Below the pieces are notes generated by a model. That model saw only the letters and a list, made by a program, of their open reading frames with translations, was not told the DNA's origin and searched no databases. Positions 21,003 to 37,858 of a DNA stretch of 64,000 bases are shown piece by piece. The DNA lies in contig NZ_FMBW01000031.1 in the NCBI RefSeq assembly GCF_900091725.1, forward strand, positions 1 through 64,000, written 5' to 3'. Both the position numbers and the translations under genes were made by a program. Source of the stretch: Streptomyces sp. DvalAA-43 (GTDB taxonomy: Bacteria > Actinomycetota > Actinomycetes > Streptomycetales > Streptomycetaceae). Positions within the stretch are counted from its first letter, which is position 1; the number at the start of each line of letters is the position of its first letter.

Positions 21003-21512
21003 TTACGCAGGACTCCGGCCATCCGTTTTCGCAGGTACACGGGCCGCCGTGACTACGCCGGAAAACGAAAGCTCCACCACGATGTGGTCACCGGGTGAAT
21101 ATATCCAGAATTCCGGCGTGAATTCCGCGATGCCGGGCAGGTGGGTGAGGGAGGATTCGACCCCCATCTCCACGCTCGGAACCGCCAGGCTCCCCCAGAA
21201 GAAAATCAGGTTGCCGATTTTTGGGGTGAACTGCTGAATTACGGTGCTCTGCTCGGTGGAATCCGAGTCCATCGAGCAGAGCACCAACTCGTCAGCCACC
21301 GCACTCCACTCGATCGCGCCGTCGGAATTGCGCGGGTAGCGGCCGAGGCTTTCGTGCTCGTACCGGAGATGCTGATCGAGGGTCAGCAACTGTACCCCTG
21401 ACCGTCCGACCCAGGTCAGTCGCCGATTGGTCTGCTTATCCGCGCGAACCAATCGGACCATGGACCGGGGCAGGAGGTCCGGTCTGGTCCCGTACACACC
21501 GTCGAGTGTCAA
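21003..21512 (-). CDS. Probable immunity protein of the Hint toxin
   Basis: This 169-residue soluble protein has no recognised family and is acidic to neutral. Its TTG start (21510-21512) overlaps the toxin stop by 4 nt (TTGA), so it is coupled to toxin translation. The position immediately after a C-terminal toxin module is the standard place for an immunity gene, and the function is inferred from that alone. GC content is lower than in flanking housekeeping genes, consistent with accessory DNA. Confidence 0.65.
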   Translation of the reverse strand: MTLDGVYGTRPDLLPRSMVRLVRADKQTNRRLTWVGRSGVQLLTLDQHLRYEHESLGRYPRNSDGAIEWSAVADELVLCSMDSDSTEQSTVIQQFTPKIGNLIFFWGSLAVPSVEMGVESSLTHLPGIAEFTPEFWIYSPGDHIVVELSFSGVVTAARVPAKTDGRSPA

Positions 21513-23692
21513 GAATTACCGCCGAGGGTTTTCGCGAAATCTTCTTCCGTCCCCTTCCATGGTACGGCCCACTTGCGTGCGGAGTCGCCCTTGCCGATTT
21601 CCACGTTGATGTGGGGCCCCTTCTCGGGGTCGTAGTCCATCCTGAACCTCTTGAATTCGCCGTTCACCCGAGTGGTGAATCCCACTACTTTGCCATAGGT
21701 TGTCGGTGCGGATTCGAGACGGCCGATGTACGGCTGCCGAGTAGCCGGATCGATCTTGCCCAGCAGTTCGAGCGCCTTGTTCCGGGCCTGCTCGAAGCTG
21801 TCGAATCTGTCCAGAACGACTTCCTTGCACGCCCCTCCGGAATTGTGGACCAGGACCGGTGTCCCGCCCGCCAGCACGTAGTACGTGTGGAGACCGCCGA
21901 CGGTGAGGTCGTGCGTGCGCTGCCTGCCCTGCTGGTCGAGGACTCCGGCCACCCGGAGCGAGGCGCCGGTGGGGCTGCGGACCTCGTCGCCGATGCGGAT
22001 GTCCGCCGCGTCGGCCCAGTCCTTGGTGTTGGTGAGCCAGACGGGGTGGTTGTCGGTTGCCGTGAGGGTGGCGGCGCCGTGGCCGGTGGTGAGGGTGAGG
22101 CGGGTGAAGTTCTTGTCGTCGTCTGTGGTGATGGTGTTGGTGACCGGGCGCGCGGCGGTGAGTCCGCTGCCCGGGTCGGTGGCGGTGACCCGGTCTCCGG
22201 TGCGGATGTCTTCGATGGAGCGGTGCGTGCCGTCGGCAAGGAGGACCTGGGTACCGGAGGGGAAGCTGTGGGGCTTCACGCAGTCCCCGACGGTCCGTTC
22301 CCCCTGCACGCCGTCGACCAGTGCCTTGACCTCGACCGCGGCCAAGGCGCTGGCCTCGACGAGGGTGTTGGCGCGGAGCGGGATGCTGTAGTGGACGACT
22401 CGGCCGCCGCTTGCGCGTGACTGGGCCTCGGCCCTGGCCTTGTAGCGCTCGGCCACCGAGGAGTAGACGGAACCGGCGCCGGGGTTGGAGCACCTCAGGG
22501 TGCCGGCGGCGTTGTTGCCGGTGAGGCGGAAGGTGCTGCGCGGGCTGGTGCACTTGCCCGCGGACTGTCCGCCGATGGAGAAGGTGGCGGTCAGGACGGC
22601 GGAGACCTGCCCCTTGCTGACGCGTTCGTCCCGGGCCTTGGAGGTGACCTCGCCGGTGAACTTCTGGGTGACGGAGCAGCCCGACGAGCTGCAGTTCATG
22701 TCGCCCGAGCCGTCGATGGTGAAGTCGATGCCCCGGTCGCCCGCGTTCTTGAGTTGCTTGGTGTGGTCGAGCAGGGTGTCGAACATCGCGTCGACGGCGT
22801 CCCCGAGGACCGGCATGATGTCCATGCCTTCGGGGCTGCCGACCGTGAGCGGCCCGCGGGTCACCTCCGGGATCGTCTCCGGCGCCTCGCCTTCCTTGAG
22901 CCGCTCGGTGAACTCATGGAAGTCGTAGGGCTCCAGGCGGAGGACCTGGTGGGGTTTCTGCCGGGTCACCAGCAGCCGGCCGGCCGAGGTGTCGATGGCG
23001 AGGGCGGGTTTCCCGTGCACGCTGCGGGGTTTCTCGTCCGGGCGCTCCGCCGCGGGCGGGGCCTTCTCCAGGGCGTCGAGGGCCTGGGTGAGGACCTCCG
23101 CCAACTGGGGCGGAGGCAGGGTCCGCCGCAGTGCCTCCTGTACGAGGGAGTCCTTGTCCTCGTGGTCGGCCATCCACTTGCCGGGCTTGCCCGACTCGGC
23201 GCCCGGGGGCGGTGCGGGGTCCTGGGACCACCGCATGAAGGTCTTGCCGTCGACGTTCAACAGGCCCTGCTCAAGCCGCTTCCCGCCGGAGGAGGTGGTG
23301 CCGTACTTGCTGCCGCCCGCGGTGGCCGTGATCCGGTTCTCGGTGACACCGAAGGCGGACGTGTCCTGGTACGTCAGCCCCTGCGCCGCACCGAGCTCCT
23401 CGACCGCCTGCCGGAACGGCTGGAGGTTCCGCTTCGCCACCGCCTTGCCGTCGTCGGACCCGACCGCGCCGGAGACCGTCAGCAGCGTTCCGGCCACCAG
23501 CGCCAGGACCAGGACCCCGACCCCGCCGAAGAGCAGCAGGCGTTGGCGGTCCGTCAGCCGCCGCCACCAGGGGGCCCCGGGGCCGGGCGGCGGCGCCGGC
23601 ATCGGTACCGGCATCGGGGGGTACGCGGGTGGCGGGGGCGGGGTGGGCGGCTCGTCCTGCCGGCGGCCCCGGAAATCGCTCGGTTCGGTCAT
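21509..23692 (-). CDS. Membrane-anchored polymorphic toxin with pretoxin-Hint domain
   Basis: The 727-residue product has, in order, a Pro-rich cytoplasmic tail (15-42), one transmembrane helix (about 51-73) and a large extracytoplasmic region (about 80-470) with Cys residues. A Hint autoprotease domain (about 471-620) has SFPSGTQVLLADG, TATDNHPVWLTN and the terminal LVHN. The variable 107-residue C-terminal module has motifs FRMDYDP and GPHINVEIGKG. The Hint domain probably releases the C-terminal toxin, an enzyme of unknown class. I recognise the module type from other actinobacterial toxins but cannot name its family. The ATG at 23690-23692 with GGAGAC upstream is preferred over an earlier start. 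A coupled immunity gene follows. Confidence 0.82.
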   Translation of the reverse strand: MTEPSDFRGRRQDEPPTPPPPPAYPPMPVPMPAPPPGPGAPWWRRLTDRQRLLLFGGVGVLVLALVAGTLLTVSGAVGSDDGKAVAKRNLQPFRQAVEELGAAQGLTYQDTSAFGVTENRITATAGGSKYGTTSSGGKRLEQGLLNVDGKTFMRWSQDPAPPPGAESGKPGKWMADHEDKDSLVQEALRRTLPPPQLAEVLTQALDALEKAPPAAERPDEKPRSVHGKPALAIDTSAGRLLVTRQKPHQVLRLEPYDFHEFTERLKEGEAPETIPEVTRGPLTVGSPEGMDIMPVLGDAVDAMFDTLLDHTKQLKNAGDRGIDFTIDGSGDMNCSSSGCSVTQKFTGEVTSKARDERVSKGQVSAVLTATFSIGGQSAGKCTSPRSTFRLTGNNAAGTLRCSNPGAGSVYSSVAERYKARAEAQSRASGGRVVHYSIPLRANTLVEASALAAVEVKALVDGVQGERTVGDCVKPHSFPSGTQVLLADGTHRSIEDIRTGDRVTATDPGSGLTAARPVTNTITTDDDKNFTRLTLTTGHGAATLTATDNHPVWLTNTKDWADAADIRIGDEVRSPTGASLRVAGVLDQQGRQRTHDLTVGGLHTYYVLAGGTPVLVHNSGGACKEVVLDRFDSFEQARNKALELLGKIDPATRQPYIGRLESAPTTYGKVVGFTTRVNGEFKRFRMDYDPEKGPHINVEIGKGDSARKWAVPWKGTEEDFAKTLGGNS

Positions 23693-23789
23693 GCCGTCTC
23701 CCTCGACGACTCGATACGCACGGCCCACGGCCATGGCGCCGCTCCTGACACCGGCTCAGTGTGGGGGCCGGGGCCCAGAATTGGAGTGG

Positions 23790-24523: not shown

Positions 24524-25747
24524 TCAGGGCTGGATGCCGTCGTACTGGAGGACGCGGTACGGCGTCTTGCCCTGGTTCACCGACTGCCACTGCGAGGCGA
24601 TCAGGGTCAGGGACGTGGCACTCGCGCTGCCGGGATGGATGTATCCGCCGTAGAGGAACGGGAGCTGGGGCCTGCCCCAGTGGTGCGGCGGCAGACCGTC
24701 GCCGACGATCTGGGGCTTGGGGGCGGTCCAGACGGCATCGGGGCGGGACGCGGTGCGGGTGCAGATCGCGTAGTCGTCCACGTCGAAGTAGCTCATGCAG
24801 TACGTGCTGCCGATCCGCTTGACGGAGAACTCCCCGATCCTGTTCCCGGAGAGCATGATCGACGGTGCCGGCGCCGTCGTCCACTGCCAGCGGTTGTCCA
24901 GGAAGGCCCAGTTCTCCTGGGCCCCGAAGTTGCCCGCGCGGAACTCGTCCGGCCGGATGCGGAACAGCTGGATCGCGCCGCCGTCGGCGGTGTTCGAATG
25001 CGTGCCGTTCCAGCGCTTGGAGAAGATGTACAGCCAGCCGTCGGGATCGATGCCCGCGAACGACCACATCCCGTACATGGACTGGTTCGTCCCCTGGGTG
25101 TCGCCCGCCCAGTGGTACGGGTAGTCCTGCCAGGTCACGCCGTAGTCGTCCGAGTACGCGACGCCCGACATCAGCGAGCCGTCGTACCCGGCCGGGATGT
25201 TGTCCCACAGGGCCACCGAGGTGTACTGGATGTACGTGCGGCCGCCGAACTCGATGCAGTCGTTGGGGATGCGGGAGATCTCGAAGCCGTGCCCGTTGTC
25301 CGCCCGGTGCGCGTAGTCGAAGCACTGGCGGGCCGCGCCTCCGGTGGGCAGCGCCCAGGTGAACGAGATCGGGCTCGCGCCGGAGGCGTCGAAGCCCGCC
25401 TGGTTCAGGATCACCGGAGACCCCAGATAGGGATCGGCCTGGGCGATCCCGCCGAACGCGTCGCCGAACACATAACCCCAGGTGTTGTCGTGCTCCCGGT
25501 AGTACGGGATCGCCAGGTCACCGGAGCCGAGACCCTGCGCGCTCGCCGAGTCGCCGGGCTGCTCGCACAGCGGGGCGCCGCTCTGGAGCAGCCGCGCGGC
25601 CGGGCGCCCCGGGGCGGACCGGTCGCGGGCGGCGGCCACGCCGGGGGCGGCGCCCAGCAGTCCGGCACCCAGGGCGAAGCCCATGCCTGCCTTGAGCGCC
25701 GACCGGCGGGTGGCGGCCCGGCGCTCCGGCTGTGAGGGGGTGGACAT
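24524..25747 (-). CDS. Tat-exported DUF4185 protein
   Basis: This 407-residue protein has a twin-arginine signal (RRSALKAG followed by a hydrophobic stretch ending near GVAAARD). The mature part has DUF4185 features: YVFGDAFGG, DPYLGSPVIL, YIQYTSVALWDN, GMWSFAGIDPDGWLYIFS and a C-terminal beta-propeller-like pattern. From family knowledge, some DUF4185 proteins are endo-D-arabinofuranases of family GH183 that cut mycobacterial arabinan. Whether this one is active on arabinan is inferred only. It is the last gene of a five-gene run of exported proteins, 64 bp after the esterase gene. Confidence 0.82.
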   Translation of the reverse strand: MSTPSQPERRAATRRSALKAGMGFALGAGLLGAAPGVAAARDRSAPGRPAARLLQSGAPLCEQPGDSASAQGLGSGDLAIPYYREHDNTWGYVFGDAFGGIAQADPYLGSPVILNQAGFDASGASPISFTWALPTGGAARQCFDYAHRADNGHGFEISRIPNDCIEFGGRTYIQYTSVALWDNIPAGYDGSLMSGVAYSDDYGVTWQDYPYHWAGDTQGTNQSMYGMWSFAGIDPDGWLYIFSKRWNGTHSNTADGGAIQLFRIRPDEFRAGNFGAQENWAFLDNRWQWTTAPAPSIMLSGNRIGEFSVKRIGSTYCMSYFDVDDYAICTRTASRPDAVWTAPKPQIVGDGLPPHHWGRPQLPFLYGGYIHPGSASATSLTLIASQWQSVNQGKTPYRVLQYDGIQP

Positions 25748-25811
25748 GGTCGGATCCTCCGTGTGTCGGGGAGAGCGGGTGCGGCGGCGAGGGGTGGGGT
25801 ACGGCGCCGGG

Positions 25812-26804
25812 TCACGCCTTGCGGAGCCGGGCGATGACTCCGTCGAGGTCGCGCTGGAAGAGATCGGGGCGCACGAAGTGCCCGCCGGGCACCTCGTGCC
25901 ACTCGTGCGGGATGCCCGCCTGGCCGAGCCGGTCCCGGAACTCCCGCTGGCCCGCGAGCACCTGGGTCTCGTTGACCGTGTCGAACCAGTTGACAGGGTC
26001 GGGACTCGTGCCGGCGACCAGGTAGACCCGCTTGTTCCGGTAGCTCTCGATGCGCTCGACGGGGTTGTCGGCGCTGACCCTGGCCTCGTCCCACAGCGGC
26101 GCCCCGTAGACCGTGCCGCCGCCCAGGTCCAGGGCGGCGGAGGAGGCGTTGGCCCAGTGGGCGACCAGACCGAAGTCGCGGCGCAGGCTGGCGGGGCCGG
26201 AGTGGGCGCTCACCGAGGCGAAGTGGCCGTAGTACTTCGCCGCGTACTTCAGCGCGCCGAAGCCGCCCATCGAGAACCCGGCGACCGCGCGGCCGTCGTA
26301 CTCGGCGAAGGTGCGGAAGTTCGCGTCGATCCACGGGACCAGCTGGGCGATGTGGAAGGTCTCCCAGTTCCGGGCGCCGGTGTTGGAGCTGACCGGGTTG
26401 GAGTACCAGCCCGCGTGACCGCCGTCGGGCATCACGACGATCACCGGCTTGCCCGCGGTCCAGTCGCGGATGCCCAGGCGGTCGAAGGTGATGAAGTCCT
26501 GGTCCGTGCCCCCGCCGTGGAACACGTAGAGGACCGGGTAGGTGCGGCCGCTGGTGTGGTAGTCGTCGGGGAGCAGCACGTTGACGCCGGGGTTCCAGCC
26601 GATCGCGTCGGTCTGGAACCGGTAGTACCACATGCGGTGGTCGCTCTCGTTGCGGTCCACGATGTGCAGCCCGAAGCCGTCACCGGCCGCGCTCGCCGCC
26701 GTGGCCGACGCGAGGACGCCGCCCGCGCCGAGCGCCAGTGCGGCGGAGAGGCCGCCTGCGGTCTTCAGGATGTTCCTGCGGGTGGGGTGCTGGTGCGTGC
26801 TCAA
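25812..26804 (-). CDS. Tat-exported esterase of the antigen 85/esterase D type
   Basis: This 330-residue protein has the Tat signal RRNILKTAGG with a cleavage region near TAASAAGD. It shows an alpha/beta-hydrolase fold with oxyanion region VFHGGG and the nucleophile Ser178 in AGFSMGG. Further conserved blocks are VIVVMPDGG and the likely catalytic His in VPGGHFV. The closest relatives are PF00756 esterases, which include antigen 85 mycolyltransferases. The TTG start (26802-26804) is preceded by AGGAGA. It probably hydrolyses acyl esters outside the cell. It sits between the LGFP-bearing NlpC gene and the DUF4185 gene. Confidence 0.88.
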   Translation of the reverse strand: MSTHQHPTRRNILKTAGGLSAALALGAGGVLASATAASAAGDGFGLHIVDRNESDHRMWYYRFQTDAIGWNPGVNVLLPDDYHTSGRTYPVLYVFHGGGTDQDFITFDRLGIRDWTAGKPVIVVMPDGGHAGWYSNPVSSNTGARNWETFHIAQLVPWIDANFRTFAEYDGRAVAGFSMGGFGALKYAAKYYGHFASVSAHSGPASLRRDFGLVAHWANASSAALDLGGGTVYGAPLWDEARVSADNPVERIESYRNKRVYLVAGTSPDPVNWFDTVNETQVLAGQREFRDRLGQAGIPHEWHEVPGGHFVRPDLFQRDLDGVIARLRKA

Positions 26805-26870
26805 CGCGTTCTCCTGGTCGTCGTCAGTGGTGATGAAGCGAGTGGCAGTGGAAGTAGCGGCTGGGGTGGG

Positions 26871-27890
26871 CTAGTTGTCGGTGATCCAGGTGCCGCGGTC
26901 GGCGTTCCAGTGGATGGTGGCCTTCTGGAACTTCTGTGCTTTGCCGCCGCCCGCTTCGTCGGTTTCGTCGGTGAGGGGGTAGCCGAGTGCGGTTTCGTGT
27001 CCGGCGGCGTGGAAGGCGTCGTAGATGGCGCCGTGGACGGTGTGGGCTCCGGTCTGGGGGGACCAGAGGAAGAGGCCGTGTTCGAAGAACTGGTAGCGGC
27101 CCCGGGTTCCGTCGGGTGCTGGTGCGGCGTCGGCTTCGTCGGTGGTGGGGAAGCCCCAGCGGCGTTCGGCGTCGGTGTCCCAGAACTTGGTGAGGATGTC
27201 GCCGTAGATGGCGTGGGCCTCGTCCGGGTGCCAGAGGATGATCCCGTTCTGGAACTGCTGGAAACGTCCGCCGAGCGAGGAGTCGCGTTCCCCCGTGATC
27301 GGCCGGCCCAGCGGTCCGCCCGGCCCGCCCGTGCTGTCGTACTTCGCCGCGATGGTGCCGTACGGAATGAGGTCGTCCAGGTTGTTGTAGCGGCGGGGCG
27401 CGAAGCCCCTGAGCCCGTCGCCCCACACCCGCTCCTCGGCGACGTGCCCGAAGTCGTACTCCTCGCGCACCACCGGCTGGGTGCGGGCCGGGTCCGCCCA
27501 GCGGAGGAAGAGCGCCACATGGTCCGTGCCGCCCGAGTCGCGCAGCAGGGCGTCGCCGGGCTGGAGGTCGCCCGCGGGGATGTCGAAGGTGACGTCCCAC
27601 AGGCCCCAGGTGGTCAGGGACGTACCGAGGTTCCAGGCCATCGACACATAGCCCGAACAGTCCGGCCGGTAGCAGCCGAACTGGTTCTCGTGGCAGCCGC
27701 TCTGGCTGTACGGCACCTGCTCGGCGATCCACGACCACGCGCGGTCCATCGCCTCGCCGCGCCCGATCGGCCCGCCCGGTTCCGAGGCGCTCGCGGCGGG
27801 CGCCGTGGTGAACGTGATCGCGAGGGCCGCCAGGACCAGGGTCACTGCCCCGATCATGCGCCGAAGGCTCAGAAGGATCAGCGGTCTCAT
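26871..27890 (-). CDS. Secreted NlpC/P60-like hydrolase with LGFP repeats
   Basis: This 339-residue protein has a Sec signal peptide (about 1-36, ending ASASEP). An N-terminal cysteine peptidase-like domain has the Cys in RPDCSGYVSMAW and the His in GTDHVALFLRW. About three LGFP-type repeats follow (PLGRPITGE, WGFPTTDE, LGYPLTDE). LGFP repeats are known as cell-wall attachment modules, notably in mycolic-acid-containing actinobacteria. The last 130 or so residues are nearly identical to those of the neighbouring lysozyme-like protein because of a 377-bp DNA duplication. It is predicted to cleave peptidoglycan stem peptides or a related amide. Confidence 0.85.
   Translation of the reverse strand: MRPLILLSLRRMIGAVTLVLAALAITFTTAPAASASEPGGPIGRGEAMDRAWSWIAEQVPYSQSGCHENQFGCYRPDCSGYVSMAWNLGTSLTTWGLWDVTFDIPAGDLQPGDALLRDSGGTDHVALFLRWADPARTQPVVREEYDFGHVAEERVWGDGLRGFAPRRYNNLDDLIPYGTIAAKYDSTGGPGGPLGRPITGERDSSLGGRFQQFQNGIILWHPDEAHAIYGDILTKFWDTDAERRWGFPTTDEADAAPAPDGTRGRYQFFEHGLFLWSPQTGAHTVHGAIYDAFHAAGHETALGYPLTDETDEAGGGKAQKFQKATIHWNADRGTWITDN
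26873..27249 (-). repeat. LGFP-coding duplication, copy A
   Basis: These 377 bp recur at 27918-28294, 1045 bp away in the same orientation. I find one mismatch (26931 c versus 27976 t). The repeat codes the LGFP tail of the NlpC-like protein. Codon use inside the repeat is richer in A-ending codons (gca, cca, gga) than in the flanking domains, which suggests recent gene conversion or acquisition of the tail. Confidence 0.95.
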
Positions 27891-27915
27891 GGCTGTCTCC
27901 CGGTCGGTTGTCCGG

Positions 27916-28941
27916 TCAGTTGTCGGTGATCCAGGTGCCGCGGTCGGCGTTCCAGTGGATGGTGGCCTTCTGGAATTTCTGTGCTTTGCCGCCGCCCGCT
28001 TCGTCGGTTTCGTCGGTGAGGGGGTAGCCGAGTGCGGTTTCGTGTCCGGCGGCGTGGAAGGCGTCGTAGATGGCGCCGTGGACGGTGTGGGCTCCGGTCT
28101 GGGGGGACCAGAGGAAGAGGCCGTGTTCGAAGAACTGGTAGCGGCCCCGGGTTCCGTCGGGTGCTGGTGCGGCGTCGGCTTCGTCGGTGGTGGGGAAGCC
28201 CCAGCGGCGTTCGGCGTCGGTGTCCCAGAACTTGGTGAGGATGTCGCCGTAGATGGCGTGGGCCTCGTCCGGGTGCCAGAGGATGATCCCGTTCCGGAAG
28301 AGCTGGAAACGTCCGCCGAGCGAGGAGTTCTCCTCGGCGCGGAGCGGCGGGCCGAGCGGGCCCCCGGGGCCGCCCAGGTCGGCGTACTTCGTGCCGATCG
28401 TGCCGTACGGCTGGAACGCCTCGGCCATCAGCTCGCGGGCGTAGCCCTCCGCCTGGGGGTAGCGCTCCGGGTACGCGGAGCGCTGGACGGCCTGGGCCAG
28501 CTCGCCCGCGGTGTCCCAGTCGGGCTCTATCTGCTGGGCCACCTCGAAGAACTTGTTCGCCGCGAAGTCGACGTCGAGGCACTGGGCGGGTTCGCACCAG
28601 CCCATCGAGGGCCGCTGCTGGAAGACCCCGAGCGAATCCCGGTCCCCGCACGCCAGGTTGTTCATACGGGACTCGACCCAGCCCGTCTCGAAGCCGGCGA
28701 GCATCACCTTGTCGGACACGCCCCGGCGCTGCCCGACCTCGTACACCTTGCGGGTCACGGCGATGTCCCGGTCCGCCGGGATGTCGCAGAACAGTGTGGC
28801 CGGGGCGGTGTTGGCGAGCGGGCCCGGCACATCGCCCGCGTCCCGGGCGAAGGCCGGGTTGCCGAGGCCGGTCACGGCCACCATGACCAGCAGGACCGCT
28901 GATCTCCGTATCGCGCGTCGTCGTTCGGTCGAGCCACGCAC
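27916..28941 (-). CDS. Secreted lysozyme/SLT-like protein with LGFP repeats
   Basis: This 341-residue protein has a signal peptide (about 1-32, VAVTGLGNPAFARD). A lytic-transglycosylase-like domain has the catalytic Glu in AGFETGWVESRMNN and the SLGVFQQRPSMGW block. The LGFP tail matches that of the next gene. The GTG start at 28939-28941 follows a GAGGAG ribosome binding site. It is predicted to cut glycan strands while the LGFP part binds the wall. The next gene starts only 25 bp after its stop, so they are almost certainly co-transcribed. Confidence 0.85.
   Translation of the reverse strand: MRGSTERRRAIRRSAVLLVMVAVTGLGNPAFARDAGDVPGPLANTAPATLFCDIPADRDIAVTRKVYEVGQRRGVSDKVMLAGFETGWVESRMNNLACGDRDSLGVFQQRPSMGWCEPAQCLDVDFAANKFFEVAQQIEPDWDTAGELAQAVQRSAYPERYPQAEGYARELMAEAFQPYGTIGTKYADLGGPGGPLGPPLRAEENSSLGGRFQLFRNGIILWHPDEAHAIYGDILTKFWDTDAERRWGFPTTDEADAAPAPDGTRGRYQFFEHGLFLWSPQTGAHTVHGAIYDAFHAAGHETALGYPLTDETDEAGGGKAQKFQKATIHWNADRGTWITDN
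27918..28294 (-). repeat. LGFP-coding duplication, copy B
   Basis: This is the second copy of the 377-bp direct repeat (first copy 26873-27249). It codes the LGFP tail of the lysozyme-like protein. Similarity fades abruptly at both borders, and weaker similarity continues for a few dozen bases beyond the catalytic-proximal border. Confidence 0.95.
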
Positions 28942-29008
28942 CTGACTGCTCCTCGGGGGAGTTGGGGGAGTTGGGGGGGAGACGGCAGTGTTCGCGGTGG
29001 TGGCCGCG

Positions 29009-29482
29009 TCAGAACCAGCTCTGGTACGGGGTGTCGTTGCACGGCCAGGTGCGGAAGCCCAGGGAGCTGTCGTCGATGCACCGCAGGGTCGCCTGGTTCT
29101 GGAAGCGGACCGTGCCGTCGCCCCAGACCTTGATCCACCAGCTCTGCTCCGGTCCGGAGCCGCAGGTACCGACGGTGCGGAACCCGTTGTCGCTGTCCTC
29201 GACGCAGCGGTTCGTGTTGACGTTGCGCAGCTGGCGCGTTCCGTCGGCCCAGACCTTCACGTCCCACAGCTGCGGATTGCTTCCGTTGCAGCTCCAGGTG
29301 CGGAAGCCGTCGTCGGTGTCGTCCATGCAACGGCCCGTGGCCTGGTTACGGAAGCTCTGGGTGGCATCAGCGGCCCGCGCGGCGGACGCGGAGCCGTTCT
29401 CGGCGGCCAGGGCGCCGGGCGGCGCGGTCAGGGAGGCGAGGACGAAGACCCCGCCGAGCAGGAGCGAGCGCGTGCCGCGCAT
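29009..29482 (-). CDS. Secreted ricin-type beta-trefoil lectin
   Basis: This 157-residue protein has a signal peptide (about 1-27, cleavage after ALAAEN) and a single RICIN domain with three QxW-like repeats: LWDVKVWADGTRQLRN, SWWIKVWGDG and YQSWF. Paired Cys occur in each (GRCMDDTDD, NRCVEDSDN, LRCIDDSS). It should bind a carbohydrate and has no catalytic domain of its own, which is unusual because such lectin domains are generally attached to enzymes. It is the first gene of the five-gene run of secreted proteins. Confidence 0.87.
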   Translation of the reverse strand: MRGTRSLLLGGVFVLASLTAPPGALAAENGSASAARAADATQSFRNQATGRCMDDTDDGFRTWSCNGSNPQLWDVKVWADGTRQLRNVNTNRCVEDSDNGFRTVGTCGSGPEQSWWIKVWGDGTVRFQNQATLRCIDDSSLGFRTWPCNDTPYQSWF

Positions 29483-29594: not shown

Positions 29595-31049
29595 TCATCG
29601 GACGGGTTCGGGCCGCGGGCAGTCGGGAACCCGGGGGCGGTCCGTCGTGCGCACGGCGGGCAGCCAGGCCGAGGAACGGGAGGAGCCGGCCGGCAGACGG
29701 ACCCGGTACCACTGGGTGGAGCGGGCGTCCGACTCGTCGATGATGGGCACCCCCTTGGGGAGGCGGCACTCGACGGCGAGGACGTCGCCGTGCCACACCC
29801 GTGTCGGTACGACGTTGTCGATGGTGTACGGCACAAGGGGATCGATCGCCAGGCCGAGACTGCACTGCGGGGTCCGGTCCGTACGGTCCCGGCAGGTGTC
29901 GTCGGCGTTGAACACCCGGAGCCTGCCGGGCGGTTCGCCCCTCGCGCCGGACGCGCCGCCGCCGAGGTGCGACCAGACCGTGGCGGCCACCGCGCACACC
30001 GCGACGGTCAGCAGGACGGCGCGGGTCCCCCACCGGCGGCGGACCGGGCGGGGCGGCACCGACCGGGCGTTGATGCGCGCCAGCAGGCTCTCGGCGGTGT
30101 GCGCGGAGCGGTCGGCGTGGGTGGGGGCCAGGCAGTCGGCGGCCAGGGCCCGCCAGAACGGCGGCACCGCACTGTCGAGCCGCAGCGGCGCGCGCCCCTC
30201 GGCGTACTCCTGTACCGCCGCGCCGCGTGACACCGGGGTCGCACCGGGGAACGGCGAGGCGCCGGAGGCGAACACCTCGTGGACCATGATGCCCAGGGCC
30301 CAGATGTCGGCACTGGGCCGGACCTCCACACCGTGCTCGCCCAGCGGGGCCTGCCAGCGCTCGGGCGGGAGGTAGTCCAGGGTGCCCATCGGCGGCGCGT
30401 ACCCGTGGGTGCCGTCGGTGCCGGTCAGTTCGGTGGCGAGCCCGAAGTCCGAGAGCTTCAGCGCACCGTCGGCCATCAGCAGGATGTTCTCCGGCTTGAG
30501 GTCGCCGTGCACCCAGCCGCTGCCGTGCAGATGGGCCAGGCCCTCGCAGATCTCGGCGAACAGCCTGGGAATGTCCGCCTCCGCGGCTCCGGCGTCGAAG
30601 AGGTCCCGCAGACTGCGCGCGGCCCGCTCCATCACCAGCACGATCGCGCCGTCCAGGAACGCCCGGTCCGGATCGCTGACCACGACGGAGTCCAGCAGGC
30701 GGATCAGCCGCGGATGGCCGGCCCGGCGGGCCAGTTCGACCTCGCGACGGGCGGTCTCCGCGACCTTGCGGGCCTGGCGCGGTGCGAGCCCGGCGGTCGG
30801 CAGGAACTTGAGCGCGACCTCTGCCGGGACGGTGGCCGGGCCGGCTAAGCGATCGGCCGAGGCATCGCGCGGGTGGTCGGCCGGGCCGCCGGCCGGGCCG
30901 TCGGTCCTGCCATGGGCCGGGCGGCCCGCGTACACCGTCGCCCAGCCGCCGGACGCGATCGGCTCGACGACCTCCCAGCCGCCGACCCGGTAGCCGCGCG
31001 GGAGCAGTTCCGTACGGTCACTTCCTGAGGTGTCGCTCCTGCCACGCAC
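29595..31049 (-). CDS. Membrane-linked Ser/Thr protein kinase
   Basis: This 484-residue protein has an N-terminal kinase domain with glycine loop IASGGWATVYAG, Lys in VALKFL, catalytic loop WVHGDLKPENILL and DFG in LKLSDFGLA. Activation segment GTLDYLPPERW and DIWALGIMVHEVF follow. A transmembrane helix lies near 350-370 (AVLLTVAVCAVAATVW), with an extracellular C-terminal domain of about 100 residues containing two to three Cys. HGDLKPEN replaces the usual HRDLKPEN, so this is a non-RD kinase. The insertion of Gly/Pro/Asp-rich sequence before the VALKFL Lys is unusual. The FHA-protein gene lies 45 bp upstream, so the pair probably form an operon. Confidence 0.9.
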   Translation of the reverse strand: MRGRSDTSGSDRTELLPRGYRVGGWEVVEPIASGGWATVYAGRPAHGRTDGPAGGPADHPRDASADRLAGPATVPAEVALKFLPTAGLAPRQARKVAETARREVELARRAGHPRLIRLLDSVVVSDPDRAFLDGAIVLVMERAARSLRDLFDAGAAEADIPRLFAEICEGLAHLHGSGWVHGDLKPENILLMADGALKLSDFGLATELTGTDGTHGYAPPMGTLDYLPPERWQAPLGEHGVEVRPSADIWALGIMVHEVFASGASPFPGATPVSRGAAVQEYAEGRAPLRLDSAVPPFWRALAADCLAPTHADRSAHTAESLLARINARSVPPRPVRRRWGTRAVLLTVAVCAVAATVWSHLGGGASGARGEPPGRLRVFNADDTCRDRTDRTPQCSLGLAIDPLVPYTIDNVVPTRVWHGDVLAVECRLPKGVPIIDESDARSTQWYRVRLPAGSSRSSAWLPAVRTTDRPRVPDCPRPEPVR

Positions 31050-31094: not shown

Positions 31095-31940
31095 TCAACT
31101 GCTCGTCTCCCGTTCCCGGATGCGTATCGGCGTCCGGGGCGGCAGCAGTGCCAGATGTTCCTCCCGTACGAGGCCGAAGCGCAGCGCGATCCCGACCAGG
31201 GCCTCCCGCTTTCCGTTGCGGCGCGCCCCACCGGAGCCGTGCTCGGCCGGAGTGCTGATCCGCATCTTCTCCTCGGCGAGGTAGTCGATGTGCGAGCTGA
31301 CCGCCCGCGCCGTCAGCCGGCCGCCGCACGCGGCGTGCCACTTGAGCCGCTCGACGATCTGCGGGGTGGTCGGTACGGCGACCGGCGACTCGTCGCGCAG
31401 CCGCGGTTCGCAGAGCGCGACCAGGACCAGGAAGTAGAGGGCCGTCTCGTCCAGCGAGTACGCCGTGACGGTGCGGCTGCCCCACTGGCCCACCATGCCG
31501 TCGGGGTCCAGATAGACGTGGTCGGGGGCGAACACCTGGAAGGCGACGGTGGTGTCGCGGCGGGTGGGCAGCACGACCCGGGAGAACTCGAAGGGGATGG
31601 GGGCGCCGGCCCGCCGGGGCGGGACCCGCAGATACTCACCCGCCCCCTCGGGGTTCTCCACCAGGTAGCTCTGGGTCGCGCTGTGGTTGCTGAGCTGCCA
31701 GTGGTCGTCGGTCACCCGGATCTCGCCGGCCAGCCGGGAGATGGCCTCGTCGTCGAGGCGCAGTTCGACCGGGGTCGTCGCCGAGCCCCGTCCGAAACGC
31801 GCCACCTCTCCCGGGCCGAGCCGCAACGTCACCGGGCCGCCGCACGGCACCCCGTCGGCGTCACCGCTTCTTCGCGTACTCCGCGGCGGACAGACCACGT
31901 TCTGCGGCAGATAGACCACGATCCCGCTCAGTGCCCCCAC
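31095..31940 (-). CDS. FHA domain protein
   Basis: This 281-residue protein has an FHA domain (about 35-100) with the pattern FGRGSATTPVELRLDDEAI, then SRLAGEI, WQLSNHS and YLVEN, including the Gly-Arg and Ser phosphothreonine-binding residues. The C-terminal half looks helical and may hold an HTH-like unit (SSHIDYLAEEKM). It probably binds phosphothreonine on the kinase encoded 45 bp downstream or on its substrates. The GTG start is at 31938-31940. Confidence 0.78.
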   Translation of the reverse strand: MGALSGIVVYLPQNVVCPPRSTRRSGDADGVPCGGPVTLRLGPGEVARFGRGSATTPVELRLDDEAISRLAGEIRVTDDHWQLSNHSATQSYLVENPEGAGEYLRVPPRRAGAPIPFEFSRVVLPTRRDTTVAFQVFAPDHVYLDPDGMVGQWGSRTVTAYSLDETALYFLVLVALCEPRLRDESPVAVPTTPQIVERLKWHAACGGRLTARAVSSHIDYLAEEKMRISTPAEHGSGGARRNGKREALVGIALRFGLVREEHLALLPPRTPIRIRERETSS

Positions 31941-32491: not shown

Positions 32492-33253
32492 TCAGGACTT
32501 GCCCGCCGACTTCATGGAGCTCACCGCGTCGGCGACCGTGCCCCGGTACAGGCCGAGCTTCGGGTCGCGCACCTTGACGTCCGGGCCGAGCTCGAAGTTC
32601 TGGGTGTCCGCGTTGGGCATGTGGTCGCCGTCGGCGAGCACGTTCATCTCGTTGATCCAGGTCAGCCCGTTGCCGCCGCTCGGGTTGAGGTCGATCACCG
32701 CGATGGCGGCGGTCTTCGGCTTGACCGGGTAGGCCGGTGCGCCGCCCAGGCCACCGGGAACCGCCGGCGTGATGTCCCCGCTGTGGTCCGAGGCCTTCGA
32801 GGCGCCCAGGCTGACCCGCGGGAAGTAGCTCAGGCCGCAGGAGTTCGCGCCGGTGTTGTTGACCTCGATCACCTGCTGGGTGGCCGAGCCCTCGCGGGGG
32901 TAGACGCGCACCGACAGGTCGCTGCTCTTGCACGGGTGCTTGTAGGCGTAGCTGTCGCTGGTGTTGCCGCTCGCGGTGCTGCCGCCCTTGGACGTGCTCG
33001 TCTTCGAGGTGCCCGTCTTCGTGGCACCGGTGTTCTGCGCGGTGCTGTCGGCCTTCGAGGTGCCCGTGGCCTTCGTGGCGTCCGAGGACTGGCCGGCGTC
33101 GGTCGACGCGCCGGCCGACGCGGCGTTGTCCGCGCTGCCGGCGGACTTCGTGCCGGTCTCGTCGCCGCCACCGCAGGCGGTGAGTGCCAGAGCGAGGACC
33201 GCGGTGACGGCGCCGAGGGCGGCGGTGTGCTTGCGGGTGCGGATCGTACGCAT
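32492..33253 (-). CDS. DUF4232 lipoprotein
   Basis: This 253-residue protein has a lipoprotein signal with lipobox LTAC (Cys about residue 27). A long Ser/Thr/Lys/Gly linker contains repeated TGTSK units (about 60-95). The DUF4232-type domain follows (SDLSVRVYPREGSATQQVIEVNNTG, GLSYFPRVSL, GGLGGAPAYPVKP). It is exposed on the cell surface. The function of the family is unknown. It is divergent from the pilin-like/DUF1023 fusion gene, with 388 bp between. Confidence 0.87.
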   Translation of the reverse strand: MRTIRTRKHTAALGAVTAVLALALTACGGGDETGTKSAGSADNAASAGASTDAGQSSDATKATGTSKADSTAQNTGATKTGTSKTSTSKGGSTASGNTSDSYAYKHPCKSSDLSVRVYPREGSATQQVIEVNNTGANSCGLSYFPRVSLGASKASDHSGDITPAVPGGLGGAPAYPVKPKTAAIAVIDLNPSGGNGLTWINEMNVLADGDHMPNADTQNFELGPDVKVRDPKLGLYRGTVADAVSSMKSAGKS

Positions 33254-36850: not shown

Positions 36851-37858
36851 GTGCGGAAATTCTGGGTGATCGGTGGCATCGGTGTCGGCATGGCCATGTG
36901 CTTCGTGGCGTTGCTCGTCGTCGGTACGTACTCCGCCGCCGCCGGGCTCGCCGGTCCCGGCGGCGGTGCCGTGGCGCTGGCCAAGGGGGCCGTGCCCGCG
37001 AAGTTCCAGTCGCTGGTGCAGAAGTGGGGCAACCTCTGTCCCGCCATCAACCCGGCCCTGCTGGCCGCCCAGCTGTACCAGGAGAGCGGGTGGAACCCCC
37101 GGGCCCAGAGCCCCGCCGCCGCGCAGGGCATCGCCCAGTTCATCCCGGGCACCTGGGCCACCCACGGCATCGACGGGGACAACGACGGCGACCGGGACGT
37201 ATGGGACCCGGCCGACGCGATCCCCTCCGCCGCCTCGTACGACTGCGAACTGGCCGGGTACGTGAAGAAGGTGCCGGGGGATCAGACGGACAACATGCTG
37301 GCCGCGTACAACGCCGGCGCGTACCGGGTGATCCGGTCCGGCGGGGTGCCGGCCATCTCGGAGACGCAGAACTACGTCACCATCATCCGCTCCCTGGAGA
37401 AGAGCTTCGCCAGGCCCGTCGGCCGCGTCGCCCCCTCGGAGCAGGCGGCCGGGGCGATCTACTTCGCCCAGAAGAAGCTCGGTACGCCGTACCTCTGGGG
37501 CGGGAACGGCACGCCCGAGCAGAACGGGCGGTTCGACTGCTCGGGGCTGACCCAGGCCGCGTACCGGACCGTGGACATCGAGCTGCCCCGGGTGGCGAAC
37601 GATCAGTACAACGCCGGGCCGCACCCCTCCCGGGACGAGCTGCTCCCGGGCGACCTGGTGTTCTTCTCGAACGACCTGGGCAACTCACGGGCCATCCATC
37701 ACGTGGGGATCTACGTCGGCGGCGGCTACATGATCAACGCTCCGTACACCGGGGCCGTGATCCGGTTCGACAAGATCGACGCGCCCGACTACTTCGGCGC
37801 GACGCGCGTGACCAAGGACGGGGCCGCGGCCCTTCCGACGGCCCGGCCGGCGGCATGA
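36851..37858 (+). CDS. Bifunctional SLT lytic transglycosylase/NlpC-P60 hydrolase
   Basis: This 335-residue exported protein has an N-terminal membrane or signal segment (5-30). A soluble lytic transglycosylase domain has the catalytic Glu in AQLYQESGWNPRAQSP, then QGIAQFIPGTW and LAAYNAG. The C-terminal NlpC/P60 domain has Cys in FDCSGLTQAAY and His in RAIHHVGIYVGGG. It resembles hydrolases found with conjugation or T4SS apparatus, though here it stands apart from the T4SS-like operon. The GTG start is at 36851. The upstream spacer 36641-36850 contains gtgcgccgg reiterations and no gene. Confidence 0.9.
   Translation: MRKFWVIGGIGVGMAMCFVALLVVGTYSAAAGLAGPGGGAVALAKGAVPAKFQSLVQKWGNLCPAINPALLAAQLYQESGWNPRAQSPAAAQGIAQFIPGTWATHGIDGDNDGDRDVWDPADAIPSAASYDCELAGYVKKVPGDQTDNMLAAYNAGAYRVIRSGGVPAISETQNYVTIIRSLEKSFARPVGRVAPSEQAAGAIYFAQKKLGTPYLWGGNGTPEQNGRFDCSGLTQAAYRTVDIELPRVANDQYNAGPHPSRDELLPGDLVFFSNDLGNSRAIHHVGIYVGGGYMINAPYTGAVIRFDKIDAPDYFGATRVTKDGAAALPTARPAA

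Follow-up and report, generated by a model that had tools for sequence, protein, structure and literature searches.

Elements acting on the arabinogalactan-peptidoglycan wall of mycolic-acid bacteria (mycolata) are known from several settings. Microbacterium arabinogalactanolyticum carries a D-arabinan utilisation locus with GH183 chemistry (PMC10509167), LGFP repeats have been proposed to be a Corynebacteriales-specific wall-binding domain (PMC8223927), the LGFP domains of the mycoloyltransferase MytA interact with peptidoglycan-arabinogalactan (PMC11299179), and LGFP is rare in mycobacteriophage lysins (PMC3314691). Here we describe a five-gene cassette on the minus strand (24524-29482) of a 64,000-nucleotide stretch of Streptomyces sp. 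DvalAA-43 (contig NZ_FMBW01000031.1; hereafter, the window), in which LGFP repeats, predicted peptidoglycan hydrolases, an esterase, and a DUF4185 protein are encoded side by side. With modest confidence, we favor the interpretation that this is a recurring modular cassette, found in Streptomyces and relatives in which no Emb arabinosyltransferase was detected, that likely dismantles the arabinogalactan-peptidoglycan wall of mycolic-acid bacteria.

Results

The cassette encodes five putatively exported proteins, including a predicted GH183 endo-D-arabinanase

The cassette consists of a ricin-type beta-trefoil lectin with an export signal (29009-29482; Pfam RicinB_lectin_2, 3.2e-12), a predicted muramidase with a GTG start whose GH184-like N-terminal lysozyme-like domain is joined to three LGFP repeats (27916-28941; LGFP, 5.5e-38; hereafter, the core gene), a predicted NlpC/P60 peptidase with three LGFP repeats (26871-27890; LGFP, 2.5e-39; NlpC/P60, 0.0058, under the cut-off), a PF00756 esterase with a TTG start and an export signal (25812-26804; Pfam Esterase, 1.3e-55), and a DUF4185 protein with an export signal (24524-25747; Pfam DUF4185, 7.9e-58). 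As a preliminary description of this DNA had claimed, the genes are adjacent on the minus strand with gaps of 67, 25, 66, and 64 bp, and all five products carry apparent export signals, which were recognised by eye (the TAT model on the esterase fell just under its cut-off). The families named there were likewise recovered by Pfam for the lectin, both LGFP proteins, the esterase, and the DUF4185 protein, and under the cut-off for the NlpC/P60 domain; the lysozyme/SLT domain assigned to the second gene had no Pfam match but resembles GH184 muramidases. LGFP repeats (PF08310) exceeded the cut-off in three stretches of each of two genes, and the LGFP and DUF4185 genes of the cassette are the only ones found in the 9.3 Mb genome (E 0.001). 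Spacing and common strand are the basis on which the five genes may be co-transcribed; no promoter-like sites were found at the cassette, and its single terminator-like site is at chance level. A Pfam match of the lectin to CDtoxinA (over the cut-off) was read as the common beta-trefoil only, an Rv1419-type lectin identity was rejected (E 0.016, far under the cut-off), and PADLOC returned kinase matches only.

The suggestion that the DUF4185 protein might be a D-arabinanase was strengthened by both its residues and its modelled structure. PF13810 matches it at 196.5 bits (curated cut-off 39.5), and the catalytic D33, D51, and E243 of EndoMA1 (nucleophile, acid/base aspartate, and third acid) correspond to D77, D96, and E306, which are conserved in 42, 43, and 43, respectively, of 43 close rows (made up of the window protein and 42 of the 115 relatives found, among which those from named mycolata are from Nocardia, at 53-58%). 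Additionally, the predicted fold is a five-bladed propeller of the EndoMA1 kind. We predict on these grounds that the protein is a GH183 endo-D-arabinanase. The same predicted chemistry is found in the Microbacterium arabinogalactanolyticum locus, and the main rival to an attack on mycolata, which is the best-supported use, is that the enzymes digest the walls of dead soil mycolata for food; secretion would suit such scavenging equally well. However, no GH172, GH116, or sugar ABC transporter gene of the kind that marks the D-arabinan utilisation locus was present among 19 Pfam-scanned window genes (which take in every picked gene between 19983 and 41925), and while GH172 was also not found in the genome as a whole, no control genome matched either, so its absence there is not established. 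We regard scavenging as unlikely, though a serious contender.

A profile built from eight relatives of the N-terminal domain of the core gene matches GH184 muramidases in PDB (1.3e-13), and Glu90 of this domain, a candidate counterpart of the catalytic Glu41 of GH184, is conserved in 80/80 relatives. For the NlpC gene, PF00877 scored weakly (17 bits against a cut-off of 23), and Cys78 and His124 are conserved in 13/13 matched copies. The window encodes another wall hydrolase at 36851-37858 on the plus strand, with SLT and NlpC/P60 in one protein and without LGFP, adjoining a PAP2 phosphatase gene.

The cassette genes are linked across genomes

The preliminary description had called for a test of conserved co-occurrence of the five families across Streptomyces; linkage does recur, but the five-gene set is not fixed. 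From 121 genomes of the genus, loci with full-length DUF4185 or LGFP were taken (33 stretches) and searched with the five proteins. All five genes in the same order were seen in one genome. Other arrangements comprised four genes (lectin-lysozyme/LGFP-NlpC/LGFP-esterase), three genes (lysozyme/LGFP-NlpC/LGFP-esterase or lectin-lysozyme/LGFP-esterase), or two genes (lysozyme/LGFP-esterase or DUF4185-lysozyme/LGFP).

The lysozyme-like domain was also used to scan named genomes, which gave 382 loci; the 80 best were kept, a choice biased to close relatives. LGFP lies in the same open frame as the lysozyme-like domain in 33 of these 80 loci (33/33 checked), and the 47 loci without LGFP served as controls. 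Counting partners within 4.5 kb on either strand, a lectin was near the lysozyme-LGFP gene at 7/33 loci compared to 0/47 controls, NlpC at 12/33 compared to 1/47, the esterase at 18/33 compared to 0/47, and DUF4185 at 16/33 compared to 0/47; four of the 33 had no partner at all. The named loci nearest to that of the window are Streptomyces ones. Labels among the lysozyme-LGFP loci include Streptomyces, Kitasatospora, Streptosporangium, Salinispora, Actinokineospora, Solihabitans, Nakamurella, and Nocardia sp. NRRL S-836. Across 276 genus genomes, the core gene was present at 74% identity or above in nine and cassette-type DUF4185 in six, with both together in four (P 8e-6, relatedness ignored); NlpC-LGFP and the esterase were found in five and seven, respectively, of the nine core-gene genomes. 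The linkage statistics throughout ignore relatedness, and the two samples overlap (L098/G075, L107/G224, L108/G078, L111/G219, L112/G035, L116/G060, and L123/G046) and are thus not independent.

Broader markers were rejected: LGFP alone occurs in 19/121 genomes, only six of these through the cassette, and DUF4185 at large in 46/121, mostly as partial or distant matches. An apparent loss of LGFP in G075 was also set aside, as runs of N inside the LGFP modules are probably assembly gaps. In L180 (G224) and L107, frame breaks occur in the DUF4185, LGFP, and kinase genes, perhaps reflecting a low-quality assembly.

Carriers lack a detectable Emb, and LGFP and DUF4185 recur in phages of mycolata

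Emb makes wall arabinan. Searches for an Emb arabinosyltransferase (PF04602) found none in the strain's own genome or in 32/32 carrier genomes searched, from a set of 33, while the Corynebacterium glutamicum control matched on both occasions; one of the carriers in which no Emb was found bears the label Nocardia sp. NRRL S-836. Because Emb was not found, the carriers contain no known arabinan substrate of their own. This result, together with the presence of the core gene in only 9/276 Streptomyces genomes, argues against the explanation that the enzymes remodel or lyse the producer's own wall, bound by LGFP, as Streptomyces develops. The neighboring kinase described below, the occurrence of LGFP in other Streptomyces proteins, and the wide distribution of the esterase in the genus would suit that explanation, which we consider improbable.

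LGFP relatives turned up in 46 of 50,697 phage records, every one a named Gordonia, Rhodococcus, or Mycobacterium phage, and the 40 listed lie in lysin or amidase genes. Similarly, DUF4185 relatives were found in 28 records, which bear Gordonia, Rhodococcus, and Mycobacterium names apart from one unnamed faecal phage. The lysozyme-like domain was present in 517 records, of which 127 are from Streptomyces phages, so the lack of LGFP and DUF4185 in Streptomyces phages is not for want of such phages. The claim that LGFP is typical of mycolic-acid bacteria is supported by its mycolata-biased distribution in phages, but not by its wider distribution (see below). No phage genes were recognised by Pfam around the cassette among the 19 scanned window genes.

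LGFP modules of the two hydrolases are nearly identical within genomes

The LGFP tracts of the core gene (27918-28217, minus strand) and the NlpC gene (26873-27172, minus strand) were found by direct-repeat comparison to form a 300-nt repeat that is 100% identical except for one 39-nt stretch at 97%, in which approximately one base differs. Twelve other loci possess both genes, of which ten were compared after excluding L098 (runs of N) and L107 (frame breaks). Within the genome, six of these ten loci have second module halves that match at 98-100% in DNA, with a best between-genome value of 81-95% for the same half; in the remaining four, the halves are 77, 89, 90, and 94% identical. In the window, the second halves are 99.6% identical, with a best between-genome value of 84%. 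Within-genome identity exceeds the best between-genome identity in 11/11 loci, the window included. Repeated gene conversion is the preferred reading of this likeness, although a passive effect of closeness may alternatively account for it; gene conversion would keep both hydrolases on one ligand.

A parallel set carries FG-GAP modules beside the same kinase

Upstream of the cassette lies a Ser/Thr protein kinase gene (29595-31049, minus strand; Pkinase, 8.4e-33) with a C-terminal, presumably outer, domain, making it a possible sensor. It is accompanied by a further upstream gene with a weak FHA-like match (31095-31940, minus strand; PF16697, 0.0031, under the cut-off). The kinase adjoins 7/9 cassettes, and the FHA-like gene occurs at 19/33 LGFP loci compared to 0/47 controls. 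The pair is not private to the cassette, as the kinase tail is found in 58/276 genomes and beside a second set of genes. Hand comparison gave nine genomes that lack the LGFP core gene but carry the esterase no more than 10 kb from the kinase tail. Of these, five were fetched (L182-L186), and in 5/5 the kinase adjoins the set, and an M23 peptidase and a GH43 protein, both with FG-GAP repeats, lie between the esterase and the FHA-like gene. In L182 there is additionally an SLT_3 protein of the lysozyme-like type that bears FG-GAP. An FG-GAP frame in L184 matches the NlpC domain at 37%, and the ricin lectin is encoded in both L184 and L186, at 68%. Like the cassette, this parallel set has the same esterase and kinase pair together with hydrolases of peptidoglycan and a glycosidase of the propeller type, but its M23 and GH43 proteins carry FG-GAP modules, and it lacks LGFP and DUF4185. 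No description of it was found in the literature searched.

The FG-GAP part of the L083 GH43 protein matches Photorhabdus PLL-type lectins (5e-55). At 4/47 LGFP-free loci, a related propeller comes after the lysozyme-like domain within a single frame; three of these were scanned with Pfam, giving FG-GAP in two and DUF346 in the third. In L112 (the same locus as L083), the LGFP and propeller kinds stand side by side. Because M23, GH43, and lysozyme-like enzymes carry FG-GAP where the cassette has LGFP, and both kinds occur in L112, it seems that binding modules can be swapped without a change in the kind of enzyme. The cassette appears to be one form of a locus with interchangeable contents beside the kinase.

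The GH43 protein in place of DUF4185, and the core gene's occurrence without DUF4185 nearby at 17/33 loci, would also suit a general set against Gram-positive neighbors, in which LGFP and FG-GAP would recognise a range of wall sugars and another furanose polymer would be the substrate of the DUF4185 protein. The intact GH183 residues and the hosts of the phages with LGFP and DUF4185 argue against this explanation, which we judge the least probable of those considered.

The parallel set also occurs at L083 4785-8411, and at L102-L104 an M23/FG-GAP gene is divergent beside the LGFP cassette. At L074, L075, and L086, LGFP and FG-GAP repeats occur together in Streptomyces proteins of 1,668-1,686 aa. 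A DUF4232 gene lies upstream of the kinase pair (32492-33253, minus strand), as does one in L079, and the second gene downstream of the cassette (21509-23734, minus strand) encodes a polymorphic-toxin-like protein with a pretoxin HINT domain (PF07591, 3.5e-15).

The esterase and other observations that weigh against attack on mycolata

Several observations count against a set dedicated to mycolata, and a number of these concern the esterase. The proposal that it is of the antigen 85 type finds some support in its predicted fold, which is closest to C. glutamicum MytA, but not in its sequence, which is nearest to feruloyl esterases. It occurs in 45/276 genus genomes, 38 of these without the LGFP core gene, and in the parallel set lacking LGFP and DUF4185; it was accordingly rejected as a private marker of the cassette. 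Mycolicibacterium is a mycolic-acid genus, and the esterases of Mycolicibacterium P0228 and P0234 are 80-83% identical to that of the window and fused behind LysM, which suggests wall targeting and perhaps recent transfer. To these points are added the 17/33 lysozyme-LGFP loci without DUF4185; two of the six genomes with cassette-type DUF4185 that have no LGFP genes at that place, in one case 1.6 kb from a contig end; the lack of a clear counterpart to EndoMA1 R198; the NlpC/P60 match under the cut-off; the presence of LGFP in other Streptomyces proteins and in Methanosarcina acetivorans; and the finding of only one Mycobacterium phage with an LGFP relative at the sensitivity of the search. 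Separately, L179, L113, L114, L115, and L120 each have, on the opposite strand and at a distance of 0.4-3.3 kb from cassette-type DUF4185, another kind of esterase that is 38-39% identical.

Discussion

The idea that these genes form a wall-attack kit against mycolic-acid bacteria draws on the recurrent linkage, the GH183 residues and fold, the lack of a detectable Emb, and the phage bias, but the set is not fixed, and the esterase is nearest to MytA by structure yet nearer to feruloyl esterases by sequence. By homology, the LGFP repeats would dock both peptidoglycan hydrolases on the peptidoglycan-arabinogalactan of the target, with the lectin aiding adhesion. The DUF4185 protein could then cut D-arabinan chains like GH183 enzymes, loosening the mycolyl layer, while both strands and peptides of the underlying peptidoglycan would be cleaved by the muramidase-like and NlpC/P60 domains, and the esterase would remove acyl groups of some kind. 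More tentatively, at rather less than an even chance, we envisage an exchangeable wall-attack locus beside a sensor kinase, in each version of which several hydrolases share one wall-recognition module and are paired with a glycosidase to match: a D-arabinanase alongside LGFP for mycolic-acid bacteria, and GH43 alongside FG-GAP lectin modules for other walls. Gene conversion would align the LGFP pair on one ligand, and the whole would constitute a chromosomal, non-phage lysis system with a swappable target range, one version being mycolata-specific.

If this is true, Streptomyces would possess a system of antagonism directed against the type of wall that renders mycobacteria difficult to treat, and with it a natural enzyme set for opening a mycobacterial-type wall, whose target range might be altered through a swap of binding modules. 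The interplay of Streptomyces with mycolic-acid bacteria that has been observed earlier (PMC4636228) would become testable at the level of genes. No publication tying DUF4185 or a D-arabinanase to Streptomyces antagonism was found in a search mostly outside the subscription literature.

Among known systems, the GH183 enzymes EndoMA1 of Microbacterium and AraH2 of M. tuberculosis have the predicted fold, the D/D/E set, and PF13810 in common with the DUF4185 protein, which is 24% identical to EndoMA1 over the aligned part and has no second domain that we could see; its gene lies among peptidoglycan hydrolases, in contrast to the EndoMA1 setting of GH172, GH116, and a transporter. The muramidase-like domain matches GH184 muramidases by profile; these are fungal and in some cases have an SH3-like binding domain (PMC10394673), whereas the window protein has LGFP. 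Compared to MytA (PS1), the esterase and LGFP reside on separate proteins in the window, and LGFP is fused to wall hydrolases instead. Finally, the lysins of mycolata phages include LGFP-bearing and DUF4185-bearing ones, like the cassette, whose products differ from them in carrying predicted export signals.
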